A stretch of DNA of 34,918 bases from Pseudomonadota bacterium (GTDB lineage Bacteria; Pseudomonadota; Alphaproteobacteria; Rhizobiales; Pleomorphomonadaceae), in the NCBI GenBank assembly GCA_018262575.1, contig JAGSYU010000019.1:1-34918 (forward strand), given 5' to 3'. Below, in pieces: positions 3,486 to 25,785 of the stretch (position 1 is the stretch's first letter; the number at the start of each line of letters is the position of its first letter). Both the position numbers and the translations under genes were made by a program. The notes beneath the pieces were generated by a model. It saw nothing but the letters and a program-made list of their open reading frames with translations. It was not told the DNA's origin and did no database searches.

Positions 3486-3509
3486 ACCCGATCCCGGAAG
3501 GAGCTTTCC

Positions 3510-4175
3510 ATGGCCGATATCGACGGTCCGCGCCTTGACCCCACCAGCGGCAAGGCCGACGCCCTCGTCGTCCTGCTGCACGGCTACGGAGCCAACGGCG
3601 AAGATCTCTACGACATCGCCGAAAGCTGGGCGCCCTTTCTGCCGGATGTCGCCTTCGTCTCGCCACACGCGCCGGACGCCTGCCCCATGGCGCCGGGTGG
3701 CCGCCAGTGGTTTCCCCTGACCATGCGCAACGACACCGAACGCTGGGCCGGCGTTGTCGCCGCCGGCCCAGCCCTCGACCGCTTCCTCGACGCCGAACTC
3801 GATCGCTGGGGCGTCTCGGCCGATCGCCTGGTGCTGGTCGGCTTCAGCCAGGGCACCATGATGGCGCTGCACGTTGGCCTGAGGCGCAAGGTGGCGCCGG
3901 CACTGATCGTCGGCTATTCGGGCTATCTTGCCGGGGCCGAGCATCTGGGTGAAATCTCGGCGAAGCCGAAGGTGCTGCTCGTCCACGGTACCGCTGATCA
4001 GGTGCTGCCGGTCGAAAGCAGCCGCGTTGCCGCCGCCGCACTCACCGCTGCCGGATTGCCGGTGTCGCTGCATCTCTCTCCCGGCCTCGGCCACGGCATC
4101 GACCGCATGGGGCTGGTCCTCGGCCTCAGGACCATTGCCGAAGCGCTGGGCGTCGACCTCCCCGACGCCGGGTGA
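3510..4175 (+). CDS. alpha/beta-hydrolase, carboxylesterase/phospholipase family (YpfH-like)
   Basis: A 221-residue cytoplasmic serine hydrolase of the phospholipase/carboxylesterase family (COG0400, acyl-protein thioesterase-like). The catalytic triad can be placed: S113 in GFSQG, D163 in HGTADQVLP and H195 in GLGHGID. LLHGYGANGEDL near residues 22-33 supplies the oxyanion loop. Length and motif order are standard and there is no signal peptide. A strong AAGGAG-type ribosome-binding site precedes the ATG, only 24 bp after the DNA glycosylase. The physiological ester is unknown; family members act on short acyl esters and lysophospholipids in vitro. Confidence 0.88.
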   Translation: MADIDGPRLDPTSGKADALVVLLHGYGANGEDLYDIAESWAPFLPDVAFVSPHAPDACPMAPGGRQWFPLTMRNDTERWAGVVAAGPALDRFLDAELDRWGVSADRLVLVGFSQGTMMALHVGLRRKVAPALIVGYSGYLAGAEHLGEISAKPKVLLVHGTADQVLPVESSRVAAAALTAAGLPVSLHLSPGLGHGIDRMGLVLGLRTIAEALGVDLPDAG

Positions 4176-18287: not shown

Positions 18288-18904
<617 letters not shown>

Positions 18905-18908
<4 letters not shown>

Positions 18909-19600
18909 GAGCGGAACAACCTCGTGTACTGGGTTTCGTGGGCCATGGAGGCGATGTCGGCGCGCAGAGTTGCGCCGCCGATGTCGTCAAGGGACGCAGA
19001 CAACGCGTCGGCCGCGACGGTCGAGACGATCGGAGCGAGAGTGCGAATCGTCCGCTGTCCCTCGGTCTGTCCGAGCGGCACCGCGCGCACCGCCGCCGAA
19101 ACGAGGTTGGCGGCGAAGGCCGTGAGATAGGCTTCCGTCGTCTCGGCGAGCGGCAGATGGTGATCGGCGGCGGCGGTCGCCACCGCCACCGGATAGGCGA
19201 CCGGGTTGGGCACGAGCCGGCCGGCGAGATCAACAAGCGTCGGCGCCCCCCAGGTATCGGCGATGGCGGTGGCGAAAGCGCGCCCCTGCGCTCCACTCTC
19301 AAGCCGCCGCTCCTTCGACGGTTGCAGCGCGTAGGCGAGTTCGGCCACCTCCAGGAGATCATCCGACCGGCCGTCGGCCGCAGCGCGGAAGGCGGCGACC
19401 AGCAGGATGGCGTCGCTACGGCCGGCGCCGTGGCAGAGAATGTCGGACAACCAGGTCGACAGCGCAGCCGCCGACGTGACGGTGCCGTCCTCGACCGCCC
19501 ACTCCAGACCGTGGCTGTAGGTGAAGGCGCCGACCGGAAAGGCCGGCGACAACCAGGTCATCAGTCGAGACAGCGCAACCCCGGCCGAGGGCTCATCCAT
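18905..19600 (-). CDS. ureF: urease accessory protein UreF
   Basis: Cytoplasmic, all-helical assembly factor, 231 residues, which with UreD and UreG forms the urease activation complex. Family landmarks are [24 protein letters not shown] near the N-terminus, [15 protein letters not shown], and the C-terminal [16 protein letters not shown], typical of UreF. The start at 19600 is inside the ureE end (CATGGATGA; 8-nt overlap), placing MDEPSAG as the N-terminus. An upstream in-frame stretch of Thr/Met-rich residues is only the shadow of the histidine codons of ureE. The stop overlaps ureG. Confidence 0.93.
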
Positions 19601-20210
19601 GCTTGGGGTCGTGCTCGTGGTCGTGGCCATGGGAATGATCGTGGCCACAGCCGCAGTCATCGCCATGGTGGTGGTGATCACAAGCCTCGTCATGCTCGTG
19701 GTGATGATGCTCCGGCCCGTGCTCATGACCATGCTCGTGGGGGCCATGATCGTGGTCATGGTCATGGCCGTGCGTCTCGCCGTGGCCGTAGGCACCACCC
19801 TCCGGGTCGAAAGCGGCCAGCACCGTCGTCACCGTGGCGCCGAGCCCCTTCAGCATGTCCTCGATGACATGGTCGTAGCGGATGCGCAGCCGGTCGCCGA
19901 GGAACTGGGCCGGCAGGTGCCGGTTGCCGAGATGCCAGGCGACGCGAACGAGGTCGGCCGGGCTGGCGGCTACGATCTCGAGCAGGCGTTCCGGCACTGC
20001 CTGCACCAGGATCAGCCGGCCATCCTCAAGCTCAAGGGCGTCGCCGTCCTTCATCACGGCCGCCTCCTTGAGATCGAGAAGGAACACCGTCTTGCCGACG
20101 CAGCGCATGACGAGGCGGCGGCGGTGGCGATCGTCTCGCTCGAGGGCGAGCGTATCGGCCGGCGTGCCGGACCAAGTGCCGGCGGGAAGGATGCGGGTGG
20201 CGGTGATCAT
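19593..20210 (-). CDS. ureE: urease nickel metallochaperone UreE with very histidine-rich tail
   Basis: Nickel-binding accessory protein, 205 residues. The N-terminal domain (1-75) has the UreE pattern (LALERDDRHRRRLVMRC; DLKEAAVMKDGDALELEDG). The metal-binding domain (about 76-145) contains AWHLGNRHLPAQFLGDRLRIRYDHVIEDML, where dimer-interface histidines fall. From residue 142 a tail of about 64 residues contains roughly 26 histidines plus Asp, Glu and three Cys, much longer than the E. coli-type His tail, and should bind several nickel or zinc ions. The start overlaps the stop of the upstream MFS gene by 4 nt and the end overlaps ureF by 8 nt, so MFS-ureE-ureF-ureG are translationally chained. 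Confidence 0.93.
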   Translation of the reverse strand: MITATRILPAGTWSGTPADTLALERDDRHRRRLVMRCVGKTVFLLDLKEAAVMKDGDALELEDGRLILVQAVPERLLEIVAASPADLVRVAWHLGNRHLPAQFLGDRLRIRYDHVIEDMLKGLGATVTTVLAAFDPEGGAYGHGETHGHDHDHDHGPHEHGHEHGPEHHHHEHDEACDHHHHGDDCGCGHDHSHGHDHEHDPKHG

Positions 20211-21436
20211 GGCATATCGGCCCTGGCGGACGAGGAAAGTGACGGACGGACGAGCTTAGCCAAAAGCGCCGCCGAGGCAAGCGCCGCCGCCATCAGCACT
20301 AGGCCGAGCAGTGCGGCAACGGCAACGCCGGCATGATGGATGACGGCGACGAAGATGACCGGCGCCACGGCGTTGGCGATATTCTGCGGCAGCGCCAGCC
20401 GGCCGGACTGACGGGAGAATTCGTCGGGCGGAAAGAAGGCAAGCGGCAACACCGCCCGCGCCATGGCTGAAAGGCCAGCGCCGAAGGCATAGATCGCCAC
20501 GAAAGCCGGCAATAGCCAAGCGCCATCGACGCCCGCGAGAAGCAGCACGAAGGAGCCACCCATCAACAGCGCCGCCGCCGCCGTGGTGGCAAGCGGACCA
20601 CCCCGCCCATCGAGGACAAGATCGGCGGCGCGAGCCGCAATGCTGACCACCGGCCTGATGGTACCGAGCCACAGGGCGTATTCCACAGAGGCGCCCGCTC
20701 CGCGCAAAAGTTCGAGATAGGCAGCGGCAAGGCCAAAGGTGGTGAAGGAAAAGGCGACCGAGATGACGCCGATGTGGAGGAAGGCGCGCGCCGTGCCGTC
20801 ACGATCGAGAAGGATCGCGCGCCGCTGGGTCGTTTCCAACTCTGTCGGAGGAGCGCCGACCGGCGGCAGCACAAAAAGGTGCAGCGGCAGACATACGAGG
20901 AGATGCAGGCCCGCCATGGCGATGAGGGTGACGCGCCATCCGACCACGGCATCGACGGCGTCGAGGATCGGCCAGAAGATGGTTGAGGAAACGCCGGTGA
21001 AGATCATCAGCACACCGATCGTCCGCCGGCCAGCCGCTCCCTCCCGTTCGACAGCCGCCGCGTAAGCCGGTACGGACAACGCCAATGAGCCGGCAGCCCC
21101 GATCATCGTCCAGGCGGTGAAATAGCCTACCGGACCTTCGGCGGCGGCGAGCAAGGCAAGTCCGGCCGTCGACGTCGCCGAGCCGAGCGCCAGTACCCGC
21201 TGGGCGCCCATCCGCCGCACCGCCTCGCCCACCGCCGGGCCGGTGAGGCCAATCACCAACATCATCAATGTCAGTCCGAAAAAGGTCGTGTCGATGTTGA
21301 GATCGACATCAACAGCCATCTTCCGCGCCATCACGCCCGGCATGTCGAAGGTCGTGCCCCAGCCGATCACCTGCGTGACCGCAAGCACCCCGACGAGGCG
21401 GAGACGAACCGGGGAGATACGAAACAAGGCCGACAT
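20207..21436 (-). CDS. MFS transporter inside the urease operon
   Basis: A 409-residue major facilitator superfamily permease with about twelve membrane segments in two halves separated by a cytoplasmic loop (LPPVGAPPTELETTQRRAILLDRDG). The loop between segments 2 and 3 (GEAVRRMGAQRVLALGS) is a degenerate MFS motif A, and VGYFTAWTMIGAAGSLALSVPAY is motif-B/C-like. The substrate cannot be read. Its place between ureC and ureE, with a 4-nt overlap of ureE, suggests a role in nickel, urea or ammonium handling; no nikABCDE, HupE/UreJ or urea ABC genes are in the window. An intercistronic hairpin (21449-21475) sits just upstream and may set its level relative to ureC. Confidence 0.85.
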   Translation of the reverse strand: MSALFRISPVRLRLVGVLAVTQVIGWGTTFDMPGVMARKMAVDVDLNIDTTFFGLTLMMLVIGLTGPAVGEAVRRMGAQRVLALGSATSTAGLALLAAAEGPVGYFTAWTMIGAAGSLALSVPAYAAAVEREGAAGRRTIGVLMIFTGVSSTIFWPILDAVDAVVGWRVTLIAMAGLHLLVCLPLHLFVLPPVGAPPTELETTQRRAILLDRDGTARAFLHIGVISVAFSFTTFGLAAAYLELLRGAGASVEYALWLGTIRPVVSIAARAADLVLDGRGGPLATTAAAALLMGGSFVLLLAGVDGAWLLPAFVAIYAFGAGLSAMARAVLPLAFFPPDEFSRQSGRLALPQNIANAVAPVIFVAVIHHAGVAVAALLGLVLMAAALASAALLAKLVRPSLSSSARADMP

Positions 21437-21516: not shown

Positions 21517-23232
21517 TCAGAACAGGAAATATCGCTGCGCCATCGGCAATACGTCGGCCGGCTCGCAGGTGAGGAGTTCGCCGTCGGCCCGCACCTCGTA
21601 GGTCTCGGGGTCGACTTCGATCACCGGCGTTGCCGAATTGTGGATCAGCGACGCCTTGGAGATACCGCCGCGCGTGTTCTCGACCGGCAGCACCATCCGG
21701 TCGAGGCCGAGCCGTTCCTTGATGCCGTGCTCATAGGCATAGCGCGACACGAAGGTGACCGACGAGCGGGTCATCGCCTTGCCGAAAGCGCCGAACATCG
21801 GCCGGTAATGCACCGGTTGCGGCGTCGGGATCGAGGCGTTGGGGTCGCCCATGGCGGCGGCGGCGATGGTGCCGAGCTTCAGCACCAGATCCGGCTTGAC
21901 GCCGAAGAAGGCCGGCGTCCACAGCACGAGATCGGCGAGCTTGCCGACCTCGACCGAGCCGACGTGCTTGGCAAGGCCCTGGGCGATGGCCGGGTTGATG
22001 GTCACCTTGGCGATGTAGCGCTTGACGCGGAAATTGTCGGCGTCGGTACCGACGTCCTCGGGCAAGGCGCCGCGCTGCACCTTCATCTTGTGCGCCGTCT
22101 GGAAGGTGCGGATGATCACCTCGCCGATGCGGCCCATGGCCTGGCTATCCGAGGAGATGATCGAGAAGGCGCCCATGTCGTGCAGGATGTCTTCCGCCGC
22201 GATGGTCTCCTTGCGGATGCGGCTTTCGGCGAAGGCGACATCCTCGGGGATCGAGCCGTCGAGGTGATGGCAGACCATCAGCATGTCCAAATGTTCGTCG
22301 AGCGTATTGCGCGTGTAGGGCCGCGTCGGGTTGGTCGACGACGGCAGCACGTTGGGAAGGCCGGCGACCTTGATGATGTCGGGCGCGTGGCCGCCGCCAG
22401 CGCCTTCGGTGTGGTAGGCGTGGATGGTCCGGCCCTTGAAGGCGGCGATGGTGTCCTCGACGAAGCCGCTCTCGTTGAGCGTGTCGGTGTGGATCATCAC
22501 CTGCACGTCGTAGTCGTCGGCCACCGACAGGCAATTGTCGATGGCAGCCGGCGTCGTACCCCAGTCCTCGTGCAGCTTCAGGCCGCAGGCGCCGGCCTTG
22601 ACCTGCTCGATCAGCGCCGCCGGCAACGAGGCATTGCCCTTGCCGGAGAAGGCAAGATTCATCGGCAGCCCCTCGGCCGCCTCGATCATCCGCGTGAGAT
22701 GCCAGGGACCGGGCGTGCAGGTGGTGGCCGCCGTGCCGGTGGCCGGCCCCGTGCCGCCACCGAGCATGGTGGTGATGCCGGCATAGAGCGCCTCGTCGAC
22801 CTGCTGCGGGCAGATGAAGTGGATATGGGTATCGAGCGCTCCCGCCGTCAGGATCTTGCCTTCACCGGCGATCGCTTCGGTGCCTGGACCGACGATGATG
22901 GTGACGCCGGACTGGACGTCCGGGTTGCCGGCCTTGCCGATTCCGGAGATGCGACCGTCGGTGATGCCGACATCGGCCTTGTAGATGCCCGAATGGTCGA
23001 TGATCAGCGCGTTGGTGATGACGGTATCGACCGCCCCCTCGGCTCGGCTCATCTGGCTCTGGCCCATGCCGTCGCGAATCACCTTGCCGCCGCCGAATTT
23101 CACCTCCTCGCCGTAGATGGTGAAATCCTTCTCCACCTTGACGAATAGCTCGGTGTCGGCAAGGCGCACCTTGTCGCCAACGGTGGGACCGAACATGTCG
23201 GCATAGGCGGCGCGGGACATGCGATAGGGCAT
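21517..23232 (-). CDS. ureC: urease catalytic subunit alpha
   Basis: Hydrolyses urea to ammonia and carbamate at a di-nickel centre. The 571 residues carry every active-site position, offset by 2 from Klebsiella numbering: carbamylated K219 (GLKLHEDWG), nickel ligands H136/H138 (DTHIHF), H248 (MIHTD), H274 ([15 protein letters not shown]) and D362 (SSDSQAMGR), plus flap C321/H322 (VCHHLDG). It is therefore expected to be active once loaded. The start at 23232 follows the vapC stop by only 3 bp, and its AGGAGG ribosome-binding site lies in the last codons of vapC. The long antisense reading frame over it is a shadow. Confidence 0.97.
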
Positions 23233-23235
23233 CGG

Positions 23236-23643
23236 TCAGCCTCCTGAAGAGAGCAGCTTGAAACTCGCGGATCCGGCCGCCTCGCGGTCGAACGTCAGGG
23301 TGTACTCCGCGCCACCAGCCTGGGCCGTCGCGGCAATCAAGTAATCGACGAAGCCGGCAGGCCCCTGCGCATAGGCATCGACGGCAGCGGACAGTGCGAC
23401 GCGGTCGGAGAATGTCAGATGCGCATGGTCGAGAAGGGCCCACAAAATGTCGGCAATTCGGGCGCGCGGAAATTTCTGGCGCTTGGCGAGAAGCCAGAAG
23501 ATTTCCACCAACGCCTCATTTGGCACGAGAAGCGGATCGGATGCGTCCGCCTCATCGTCGATGAGACGGCGGGCAATCGGACTTTGCGCGGGATCGTCAT
23601 TGCGCAGGTAGCGAACGAGGACATTGGTATCGATGGCTCTCAT
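23236..23643 (-). CDS. vapC: VapC-type PIN-domain toxin within the urease operon
   Basis: A 135-residue PIN-domain ribonuclease of type II toxin-antitoxin systems. The acidic active-site set is present: D5 (AIDTNVLVRYL), E43/E47 (PNEALVEIFW), D100 (GFVDYLIA) and D119 (LTFDREA). The product is probably an Mg-dependent endonuclease held inactive by its partner. Its start overlaps the vapB stop by 4 nt, as in most vapBC pairs. Its last codons contain the ureC ribosome-binding site and its stop is 3 bp before the ureC ATG, so it is integrated into the urease operon rather than a loose insertion. No truncation or frameshift is visible. Confidence 0.88.
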   Translation of the reverse strand: MRAIDTNVLVRYLRNDDPAQSPIARRLIDDEADASDPLLVPNEALVEIFWLLAKRQKFPRARIADILWALLDHAHLTFSDRVALSAAVDAYAQGPAGFVDYLIAATAQAGGAEYTLTFDREAAGSASFKLLSSGG

Positions 23644-23897
23644 GGCCGGAGCCGCTCCGACACGCCTTCGGCCACGGCTTCTCCCACGGCGTCCCGCAGA
23701 TCCTGATCGGACATCTGCGTGCCATCGGCCGCCATGCCAAAACCGGCGCCGACCCGCACTTTCCTGACCCGTACACCCAGCCCGCCGTCGAGCTTGTGAA
23801 AGAACACCAATTCGTCCCCCGGCTCGACGCCGAAAGCGTCCCTAACATCGGCAGGAATGGTGATCTGGTTCTTTGACGTCACCTTGGCGACACCCAT
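23640..23897 (-). CDS. vapB: AbrB/SpoVT-family antitoxin (VapB-type)
   Basis: An 85-residue swapped-hairpin AbrB DNA-binding protein: VAKVTSKNQITIPADVRDAFGVEPGDELVFF is the standard N-terminal domain of antitoxins paired with PIN toxins. The C-terminal part (TQMSDQDLRDAVGEAVAEGVSERL) is helical and should block the VapC active site. The start at 23897 has GAAAGG 8 nt upstream. The 56-bp gap from ureB contains an 11-bp palindrome (23923-23933), a likely autoregulatory operator. The gap is also AT-richer than the flanking urease genes, a possible trace of acquisition. Confidence 0.87.
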   Translation of the reverse strand: MGVAKVTSKNQITIPADVRDAFGVEPGDELVFFHKLDGGLGVRVRKVRVGAGFGMAADGTQMSDQDLRDAVGEAVAEGVSERLRP

Positions 23898-23922
23898 GGA
23901 TTTTGCCTTTCAAAACACAACT

Positions 23923-23933
23923 TTGTCGGACAA
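23923..23933. promoter_or_regulatory. palindrome upstream of vapB, candidate VapB/VapBC operator
   Basis: TTGTCGGACAA is a perfect palindrome about a central G, 26 bp upstream of the vapB ATG. AbrB-type antitoxins usually bind short palindromes near their own promoter. No confident -35/-10 pair was found here, so an internal promoter is inferred, not shown. Confidence 0.45.
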
Positions 23934-23953
23934 TACCATGAAACGTAAGGCAC

Positions 23954-24259
23954 TCACAGTTTCCCCATCACGGTCTGTCGGAAGCCATAGACCTCGCGCT
24001 TTCCCGCGTAGGGAACCAGCGTCACCGACCGGCTCTGGCCGGGCTCGAAGCGGACGGCGGTGCCGGCGGGAATGTCGAGCCGATGGCCACGCGCCTTGTC
24101 GCGGTCGAAGACGAGCGCCGGATTGGTTTCTGCAAAATGATAGTGGCTGCCGACCTGCACCGGCCGATCGCCGGAATTGGCCACCTCGAGCACCAGCGTC
24201 GGCCTGTCGGCATTGAGTTCGATGTCGCCCGCATCAGGGATGACTTCACCCGGAATCAT
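23954..24259 (-). CDS. ureB: urease subunit beta
   Basis: Structural beta subunit of the three-subunit bacterial urease, 101 residues. The family pattern is complete: MIPGEV at the start, [24 protein letters not shown] in the middle, [15 protein letters not shown] and the C-terminal YGFR. It packs on UreA and UreC in the trimer of trimers. It lies 11 bp downstream of the DUF1272 gene and is separated from ureC by the vapBC pair, whereas ureB and ureC are normally adjacent. Confidence 0.95.
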
Positions 24260-24270
24260 GATCGTTCCTT

Positions 24271-24522
24271 TCAGGCGGCGCGGGGCGAGCAGGGCTCACC
24301 CTTGAAGACGCGGACGGTGGACGCCGGATTGGCGGCGAGCTTGCCAGCCGGGCGTACCGGCCGACGAACCAGTTCGCCACCGCAGTTGGGGCAGGCGCCC
24401 TTCAGCACATCGCGGGCACAGTCCGGGCACCACGTACATTCGAAGGAGCAGATATAGGCTTCGGCGTCCGGCGACAGGTCGCGGTCGCAGCACTCGCAAT
24501 TGGGACGAAGTTCGAGCGCCAT
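24271..24522 (-). CDS. DUF1272 zinc-ribbon-like protein in the urease operon
   Basis: An 83-residue protein with the DUF1272 opening [14 protein letters not shown] and a cluster of nine cysteines (C9, C11, C12, C25, C29, C32, C35, C44, C47) in about 40 residues, consistent with one or two zinc sites, followed by a flexible basic tail. DUF1272 genes occur between ureA and ureB in other rhizobia, so the position is expected. Function unknown; metal handling for urease assembly is speculation. Gaps of 4 bp to ureA and 11 bp to ureB show it is part of the operon. Confidence 0.85.
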
Positions 24523-24526
24523 GGCT

Positions 24527-24829
24527 TCACCGGATCGGTTCGTGGACGGTAACGAGCTTGGTTCCGTCGGGGAAAGTCGCCTCCACCTGCACGTCGTGGA
24601 TCATCTCGGCGATCCCCTCCATCACCTGCTCGCGGCGAAGCACCGTGGCACCGGCGGCCATCAGGTCGGCCACCGTGCGGCCGTCGCGGGCGCCCTCCAC
24701 CACGTAGTCGGTGATGAGGGCCACCGCCTCCGGATGGTTGAGCTTGACGCCCCGTTCGAGGCGGTTGCGCGCCACCATGGCGGCGAGGCTGACAAGCAGC
24801 TTGTCCTTTTCGCGCGGCGTCAGATTCAT
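24527..24829 (-). CDS. ureA: urease subunit gamma
   Basis: Structural gamma subunit, 100 residues. [55 protein letters not shown] and the C-terminal [20 protein letters not shown] are the invariant UreA blocks. It is the first structural gene after ureD, with a 14-bp gap, and is followed within 4 bp by the DUF1272 gene. Confidence 0.96.
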
Positions 24830-24843
24830 CGGTTTTCCTCGTC

Positions 24844-25704
24844 TCAGATCGACCAGGCGCGCGGCAGCGGCCAGCCGGTGAGGGTTTCGATCAGGGGTTC
24901 GACAATGGCGCGCAGGCGGCGGCCGTCAAGGGCCAGACAGCGTATGGACAACAGGACGTCGAAGGCGGAAGCCCCCGCCTCGATGCCGTCCGTCGCCAGC
25001 CCCGTGATCATCTCCCGGACGCCGCCGAGACGGCCGGCCGCCTCGGGCGCGACCATCAGCAGGCTGGCAAAGGCGCGCGCACCGCCACCAGTGGCTCTGC
25101 CAGCCAGAACGGTCCGGCTGTCACCGGAAAGACGCAAGGCATCGGCGTAGACGAGCCGGCCGTCGCGCCGAACGCGCCAATGGTCGGCAAGCTCGACGGC
25201 GGTGACCTCCTCACCCATGGCGGTACGGCCAAGCACGACGCTTTCGACGGCGACGAGGCGGGCGTCACCGCTGAGCTCGACATCAAAGCGACGGCGGAGA
25301 CCGGCACCGTTAAAAATGATGGTCTCCTGCGGCAGCCAGCGGGCCGTTGCCCCCGCCTCGACCACCAGCCGATTGTCGATACGACCGACGCCGTCGACGC
25401 GCCGGTAGATGCGTTCGGCGGCTTGCGTGGTAACGGTAGCCGTCGTTCCTGCCCCGAAATGCGCCTCAAAGGACAGATGATCGCCACCGGTGACGCCGCC
25501 AGCGCTGTTGAGGAAGACGGCGGCCGGCCCCGACCCGTCGTAGACTCTTGGCAACCGCACCTTGGCCGAACCGTCCTGAAAAAGGTCGGCGAGCCGGGTC
25601 TCCGTGGCGTCCCCGATCTGCCGTAGCGCGAAGGCAACGCGTGCCACGCCGTCGGCCCGTTCGAGCCGGGGCTGTTCCTTCTGAAGCGACACCACGGTCG
25701 ACAC
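24844..25704 (-). CDS. ureD: urease accessory protein UreD
   Basis: Scaffold of the urease activation complex; it binds apo-urease and UreF and forms part of the nickel path. Family motifs are [53 protein letters not shown] and [10 protein letters not shown]. The N-terminus is uncertain. The reading frame extends to 25764 (TTG), but a GTG at 25704 gives a family-like [19 protein letters not shown] start (286 residues) with GGAGG about 11 nt upstream. The extension would also run through a terminator-like hairpin after lysA. UreD opens the leftward urease operon; no clear promoter was found in the short gap. Confidence 0.9.
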
Positions 25705-25762
25705 GTCGGCCAAGCCCTCCCCCAATGCCACGCCAGCGCGGCGAACTGCCCGGCACTGTGGC

Positions 25763-25785
25763 AAAAGGCCCGCCGCCCGGCGAGC
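25763..25785 (-). terminator. terminator-like hairpin between lysA and ureD
   Basis: On the minus strand GCTCGCC pairs with GGCGGGC (one G-T pair) around a GGGC loop (25768-25785), followed by CTTTTG. A second small hairpin, GCCCAA-GTT-TTGGGC, lies just before it. Together they could end the argH-lptM-lysA transcript and make urease a separate unit. The T-run is short, so read-through is possible. Confidence 0.45.

Follow-up and report, generated by a model that had tools for sequence, protein, structure and literature searches.

A VapBC toxin-antitoxin cassette in the ureB-ureC gap of urease operons of the Hyphomicrobiales

The gap between the urease genes ureB and ureC in the window (the whole 34,918-nucleotide stretch of DNA analyzed here) is filled by a complete vapBC toxin-antitoxin (TA) pair, which is probably best understood as an autonomous, autoregulated cassette occupying a fixed slot that the Hyphomicrobiales reuse. 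Judged from sequence comparison, the module is complete and under purifying selection, and the slot is common to several families; congeners with similar ureB and ureC genes can differ across the whole block of leader, vapB and vapC; and the 3' end of vapC appears to be left behind, after loss of the cassette, as a ureC leader that carries the Shine-Dalgarno site. The cassette is probably functional in the TA sense and its autoregulation by VapBC is likely; tuning of urease by VapB is possible.

The vapBC pair within the urease operon

The order of genes on the minus strand is ureD, ureA, a gene for a small DUF1272 protein, ureB, vapB, vapC, ureC, a gene for a major facilitator superfamily (MFS) transporter, ureE, ureF and ureG (Table 1), the identity of ureG being presumed in part from the look of its sequence. 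The vapB and vapC genes overlap by 4 bp, and the vapC stop codon (23238-23236) lies 3 nt upstream of the ureC ATG. A preliminary description of this DNA had placed a complete vapBC pair between ureB and ureC and had argued that it is integrated there rather than loosely inserted. The coordinates and the matches to PF04014, TIGR01439 and PF01850 bear out the first claim; the second is borne out by the 3 bp that separate vapC from ureC and by an AGGAGG within the last vapC codons.

Table 1. Features of the urease operon and its vapBC cassette, in the direction of transcription
Feature	Position	Strand	Remarks
ureD	24844..25764	-	PF01774, E 6.7e-49; listed from first TTG
ureA (urease gamma)	24527..24829	-	PF00547, NF009712
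DUF1272 small protein gene within operon	24271..24522	-	PF06906, E 1.1e-27
ureB (urease beta)	23954..24259	-	PF00699; stop codon is the upstream cassette edge, beyond which identity between congeners falls
Cassette leader, 56 nt	23898..23953	-	putative vapBC operator and promoter region
CCTTAC outer half-site	23945..23950	-	-53 from vapB start; part of recurrent predicted operator
Palindrome TTGTCCGACAA	23923..23933	-	where other cassettes have the middle half-site
GAAAGG inner half-site	23906..23911	-	-14; one mismatch to GTAAGG; same form at -14/-13 in G003, G012, G291
vapB	23640..23897	-	85-aa AbrB/MazE-type antitoxin; PF04014, E 8.7e-11; TIGR01439, E 7.4e-12
vapC	23236..23643	-	135-aa PIN-domain toxin; PF01850, E 1.1e-11; acidic D5, E47, D100, D119
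AGGAGG, ureC Shine-Dalgarno site in vapC end	23240..23245	-	7 nt from ureC ATG
ureC (urease alpha)	21517..23232	-	TIGR01792; ATG is the downstream cassette edge
MFS transporter gene, between ureC and ureE	20207..21436	-	PF07690
ureE	19593..20210	-	NF009758, 170 bits (under cut-off, 237)
ureF	18905..19798	-	assigned by position; no NCBIfam match
ureG	18288..18908	-	assigned by position

The genome that contains the window is a draft (295 contigs, 86% complete). The same gene order is present in the named isolate Pleomorphomonas carboxyditropha SVCO-16 (L022), whose VapC is 89% identical, and the same arrangement is found in a congener assembled as one contig (G012); an assembly artefact is thereby ruled out. 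A single recent insertion in this metagenome-assembled genome is likewise out, given the arrangement in the isolate and the presence of vapC at the junction in 28 of 279 genomes (see below). Two other genes of the operon vary among relatives. The MFS gene, which scores 153 bits against the ArsK model (cut-off 400), is also present in P. carboxyditropha, and in G006 (L379) ureE follows directly after ureC; the DUF1272 gene lies between ureA and ureB in several relatives and was not found in others, e.g., G007.

Identity and conservation of VapB and VapC

The PIN domain (PF01850) is found in all 26 junction VapC proteins of alignment A1, and the MazE_antitoxin domain in 26 of 27 junction VapB proteins. 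D5, E47 and D119 of VapC are invariant in these 26 sequences; D100 is present in 25 of them and is replaced by E in G224. We take these four acidic residues to be the catalytic active site. With a PIN toxin, its acidic residues, and an overlapping upstream gene for an antitoxin of DNA-binding type, the pair has the makings of a type II VapBC system. The AlphaFold2 model of VapC (pLDDT 95.5) retrieves mostly VapC and PIN proteins as its top PDB chains in Foldseek, none at E <= 0.001 and with TM-scores of at most 0.49; a sequence-profile search of the PDB gave PcrIIC1 as its top match (E 1.5e-7). The predicted model of VapB is poor (pLDDT 68.8).

Comparison of the window with two congeners gives dN/dS of 0.111 and 0.062 for vapC and of 0.053 and 0.055 for vapB, within the range of ureA, ureB, ureC and the DUF1272 gene (0.02-0.13, same congeners); against the distant G291 the values are 0.21 and 0.06, respectively, at dS > 1. 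Both genes thus appear to be under purifying selection, which is a new result. PADLOC-DB yielded no match at E <= 0.01 to VapB and VapC of the window or to four other pairs, and a known anti-phage defence system was discarded as an identity on that ground. A plasmid search with VapC of the window matched 124 records and one with VapC of G007 matched 389, all at less than 60% identity; for the 15 of the 124 that were listed no urease feature is named under the match.

Distribution of the slot across the Hyphomicrobiales

A ureC gene is present in 279 of 397 genomes of the order (the best ureC place was taken in each); ureB-ureC junctions were obtained for 272 of the 279, with ureB seen in 258 and not seen in the stretch used in 14. 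The seven genomes left without a junction were G015, G150, G217, G227, G244, G304 and G327, of which G304 was obtained later. In 28 of the 279 ureC-positive genomes, representing 17 genera and 8 families, vapC lies at the junction: 27 were recovered with iterated profiles (26 intact, G242 truncated) and G304 by another route. The other 251 are without vapC at the junction, six of them for want of a junction. Longer stretches confirm the order ureB, vapC, ureC in the three vapC-bearing genomes whose ureB was out of the initial stretch (G123, G173, G224).

The premise of the preliminary description that ureB and ureC are normally adjacent does not hold well in this order: the gap is <= 30 nt at 105 of the 258 junctions, 31-110 nt at 30, 111-450 nt at 20 and > 450 nt at 103. 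By content, vapC is present at 24 of the 258; of the junctions without it, 135 have a gap no longer than 110 nt and 99 a longer one, so that relatives with the operon and without the TA pair exist (the 135 include G008, which stands in the 31-110 nt bin only as its gap is measured to a duplicated ureB tail). The junction comparison proposed in that description turns up vapC there in 28 of 279 genomes, not in the window alone, and, rather than being always split by unrelated genes, the junctions hold TA pairs, unrelated genes, or no split at all.

Other cargo was surveyed at 101 junctions (two of them also with vapBC), likely ORFs being picked by codon-position GC; the resulting 144 fall into 38 clusters, whose families were called from one representative each. 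Among these families are LprI (32 ORFs in 28 genomes), GFA (14), an HD protein (11), DUF559 (6), DUF6980 (5), LysE (4) and an RNA ligase (4). Together with the gap lengths, these counts place vapBC among the commonest inserts between two genes that are often apart in the order. The LprI, GFA, HD, DUF559, DUF6980 and LysE genes run in the direction of the operon; three of the four RNA-ligase ORFs and four clusters without a named family are antisense to it, and some of these are perhaps spurious.

Over the class as a whole, VapC of the window's kind occurs in 24 of 289 sampled genomes, the window's own included, and none of 29 VapC loci fetched from the other class genomes has a ure gene within ~1.5 kb. 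In the 397 genomes of the order, the 26 best places for a VapC profile, built from the junction sequences themselves, are all ure junctions, while G089 and G242 score among the non-ure places; since at most the best 10 candidates per genome were scored, hits away from urease are undercounted.

Cassette geometry, the ureC Shine-Dalgarno site and relics of vapC

The cassettes are compact. Counted, like alignment A1, over the 26 intact cassettes (G242 and G304 left out), the 4-bp overlap of the two genes is present in 24; vapB starts 42-94 nt past the ureB stop codon in 21, the other five having other DNA (482 nt or more) in between; and the vapC stop codon lies 1-26 nt from ureC in 23, and 181, 438 and 530 nt away in the remaining three.

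A Shine-Dalgarno match precedes ureC at 24 of 27 vapC-bearing junctions and is absent from three. Its first nucleotide lies no further downstream than the end of the vapC stop codon in 13 of the 27 and beyond that point in 11. Such matches also precede ureC at 188 of 245 other junctions, so that the site as such goes with ureC, and the unusual feature is that a toxin gene can encode it. The earlier assertion that the last codons of vapC carry the AGGAGG of ureC is thus upheld for the window, and extends to the 13 cassettes in which the site begins within vapC and to relics in which it survives.

These relics are a new finding: eight congeners that are without the pair appear to retain the 3' end of vapC, with the ureC Shine-Dalgarno site. 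The genus of the window is represented by 14 genomes, of which 11 form a supported clade (96/98), with the cassette in three (G000, G003, G012) and a vapC relic in eight. In the latter the gap is 71-90 nt long and retains about the last 17-20 vapC codons, the Shine-Dalgarno site being retained as GGAG. Gapped DNA alignment supports all eight relics (scores 57-93, shuffle maximum 30) and detects no vapC relic in G008 or G019; ungapped DNA comparison supports six, not G010 and G011. At the protein level only G005, G006, G009 and G013 score above the highest shuffled value; G001 and G010 align in register with lower scores, and a match is absent for G002 and G011. The other congeners have another cassette subtype (G007), a different insert (G008), or a divergent ureC with a 17-nt gap (G004). 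Intermediate variation exists as well: vapC of G012 stops three codons before that of G003 with the Shine-Dalgarno site still retained, and G242 retains vapB and only the later part of vapC.

The cassette leader

The most frequent 6-mer in the 100 nt upstream of vapB is CCTTAC/GTAAGG (18 of 29 regions). With the half-site defined as GTAAGG or GTAGGG on either strand of these 100 nt, one or more copies are found in 20 of 29 upstream regions (shuffles 3.5, maximum 10), in 13 of 17 genera, and two or more copies in 13 of 29 (shuffles 0.16, maximum 2). Many cassettes have the half-site repeated every ~19 bp, near positions -52, -33 and -14 relative to the vapB start. Half-sites also occur upstream of 39 of 111 VapBC relatives away from urease (shuffles 10.2; this background includes duplicate genomes), where TGGTAA and ATTACC are more frequent than CCTTAC. 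Their recurrence there makes the half-sites a property of the VapB family and not of urease. That cassettes bring along a recurrent predicted GTAAGG operator, shared with relatives elsewhere, is also new; the string GTAAGG is absent from the eight papers listed by a literature search.

The leader of the window has an exact outer half-site and an inner one with a single mismatch; in its subtype the middle half-site has been lost and the inner one is degenerate. The 11-bp palindrome TTGTCCGACAA, which had been proposed as an autoregulatory operator, is indeed present and falls inside the better-supported operator region. On its own, however, it is within chance expectation (shuffle p 0.42), and its arms are shorter in G003 and G012; as the whole operator it is out. 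What endures of the proposal is an operator made of recurrent family half-sites upstream of vapB, and it is this predicted family operator that makes autoregulation by VapBC likely. No consensus sigma-70 promoter was found in the region, the cassette leader included. Terminator-like sites, which in the region are no more frequent than in shuffles, number none inside the cassette and one after ureG; the cassette would thus permit read-through into ureC.

Probable exchange of cassettes between congeners and families

The cassettes fall into subtypes (labelled X, Y, Z, W and V for the purposes of this report) that cut across families. A further new finding, that vapB and vapC appear to have been exchanged together between congeners whose flanking sequences are alike, is most plainly seen in two genomes of one genus, G291 and G317, with nucleotide identities of 92% in ureB, 90% in the first 330 nt of ureC, 52% in vapB and 47% in vapC. 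Identity falls directly after the ureB stop codon and recovers at the ureC ATG, and the same edges are seen between G052 and G158/G263 and between G003 and G007. In ungapped profiles an indel makes even two genomes of one subtype, G158 and G263, appear dissimilar over the final 60 nt upstream of ureC; the evidence for the downstream edge is therefore the recovery of identity at the ATG together with gene-level identities.

The trees of VapC and UreC conflict. UreC groups G007 with G000, G003 and G012 (97/87) and G291 with G317 (99/92; partial sequences), whereas VapC groups G007 with G317 (100/99) and the window's type with G291 (97/97). The VapC data reject the group of G007, G000, G003 and G012 (p-AU 9e-10), and strict vertical descent of one cassette within the genus is rejected by this test. 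Over 325 pairs, Spearman correlations of identity are 0.50 for vapB-vapC, 0.39 for ureB-ureC and 0.01 for ureC-vapC.

What the cassette may do and how it may move

The preferred reading of an autonomous cassette has the following mechanism. VapC would be an RNase held by VapB, and the principal task of the module would most likely be that of an autonomous TA pair, docked where urease stays unbroken. VapBC complexes would repress the cassette's own promoter through the GTAAGG half-sites. Urease transcripts would carry the cassette and transcripts initiated in the cassette would continue into ureC, which would have come to use the ribosome-binding site inside the cassette; any effect on ureC output would probably be a by-product of the shared mRNA and the shared Shine-Dalgarno site. 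The identity edges at the ureB stop codon and the ureC ATG suggest that cassettes are exchanged by recombination in the conserved flanking ure genes.

A more ambitious combined reading, which we hold only tentatively, treats the gap as an allelic slot throughout the order, with highly divergent VapBC cassettes maintained there and passed across genera and families (a trans-family TA polymorphism) and with the conserved urease genes as recombination arms; visiting nuclease genes may start the exchange, and each cassette would put ureC under its own autoregulated promoter by virtue of a common mRNA and of the Shine-Dalgarno site at the end of vapC. The example offered of an exchange-starting nuclease would be the GIY-YIG-type gene beside a duplicated ureB 3' end in G008 (L380, minus strand, about 1480-2283). 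There, a complete ureB is followed by a 348-nt insert with a 100-aa GIY-YIG-like ORF, then by a duplicated ureB 3' end (94% identical over 99 nt), then by ureC. The locus (L116 in the junction set) is the only junction with two ureB matches; at 139 other gaps (G008, with a measured gap of < 60 nt, not among them) no match to the genome's own ureB or ureC exceeds 43 nt. The GIY-YIG identity comes from plasmid matches (five of six so annotated, the best 67% identical), Pfam and the PDB giving no support. No such ORF was found in 199 genomes of the order, a count of little weight in that the inclusion of G008 among them is uncertain. A relative of the ORF lies, in three pieces and unannotated, at 3501-3771 of a plasmid of Rhizobium sp. 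Q54 (L443), between cas3 and cas5 of a type I-C CRISPR operon.

That the cassette is instead a dedicated regulator of urease, with VapB or VapBC acting at an internal promoter to adjust ureC and the downstream accessory genes separately from ureDAB, seems unlikely. In favor of such a regulator are the recurrence of the predicted operator, the close spacing to ureC and a cassette free of terminator-like sites; in addition, two genomes, G046 and G154 (L375, L376), have vapB 2 nt before ureC with GTAAGG at -30, while no vapC was found at either junction. But these two VapB proteins are identical and come from one genus, and therefore amount to one observation; an LprI-type gene lies upstream of them. 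The same operator, moreover, accompanies VapBC modules elsewhere than at urease, the majority of ureases in the order are without a cassette, congeners have lost it and retained the operon, and cassette subtypes have been swapped.

We regard it as distinctly improbable that unrelated VapBCs have inserted repeatedly and independently into a permissive gap with no exchange between urease loci. Independent insertion of different VapBCs at one site would give similar edges, the junction demonstrably takes LprI, GFA, HD, DUF559, LysE and other genes, and in the VapC tree some non-ure rows fall among ure rows. Nevertheless, the ure-linked VapCs cluster, with five label changes against a shuffled mean of 23.7 (35 of 77 genome-contig background rows used; three of 115 rows, being short, and two duplicates left out), for which a single origin is a possible explanation; the best-scoring VapC-profile places, with the reservations given above, are all ure junctions; and different families share a subtype and a similar leader (G007 and G317 in subtype X, G000 and G291 in subtype Y), although more distant members of subtype X have unlike leaders.

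An addiction module guarding the operon from loss, the other role put forward in the preliminary description, would fit a position within the operon, where operon loss entails loss of the antitoxin gene, but is very hard to credit when eight congeners have lost the pair and retain urease, G242 has lost part of vapC, and carriers number only 28 of 279.

Relation to known systems and significance

Type II TA pairs between the genes of an operon are known: a 2020 review lists relA-mazEF-mazG, dinB-yafNO-yafP and folA-ccd(O157)-apaH, and states that at relA-mazG and dinB-yafP the operon is undisturbed in strains without the TA pair, that the site can hold other elements, and sees no functional link of the TA pair to its neighbors in two E. 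coli cases (PMC7167474). The urease cassette resembles these cases, as described there, in standing between neighboring operon genes, in having relatives without it and in a site that also takes other elements. It differs from them in that the operon is that of urease, the site is common to at least eight families of an order, one vapBC block appears to take the place of another from congener to congener, and the toxin gene can contain the Shine-Dalgarno site of the gene downstream, a site that survives as a relic. Shigella flexneri VapBC likewise combines an AbrB/SpoVT-type antitoxin with a PIN toxin, with operator sites that overlap the promoter (PMC3384007). The kinship does not extend far: VapC is distant from its Shigella counterpart (Shigella sonnei VapBC, 19% identity, Foldseek E 0.49), and here the pair lies inside a metabolic operon. 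The titles and abstracts searched, with most subscription papers outside the search, contain no description of vapBC between ureB and ureC.

Another parallel is ntrPR of Sinorhizobium meliloti, a VapBC-type TA system of the Hyphomicrobiales linked with nitrogen metabolism. It is not known to have a link to urease.

With sister species that differ in the cassette (some with a relic in its place), conserved flanks and a measurable urease, the origin, exchange, loss and urease effect of the cassette are directly testable. Exchange and relics bear on the question of how TA modules move, their movement between hosts and their integration being called unelucidated in the same review (PMC7167474). 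The provision of a metabolic gene's ribosome-binding site by the toxin gene before it suggests a way in which clean removal of a selfish insert can become difficult, and the ureB-ureC slot offers a natural test case for the way in which TA genes settle inside working operons.
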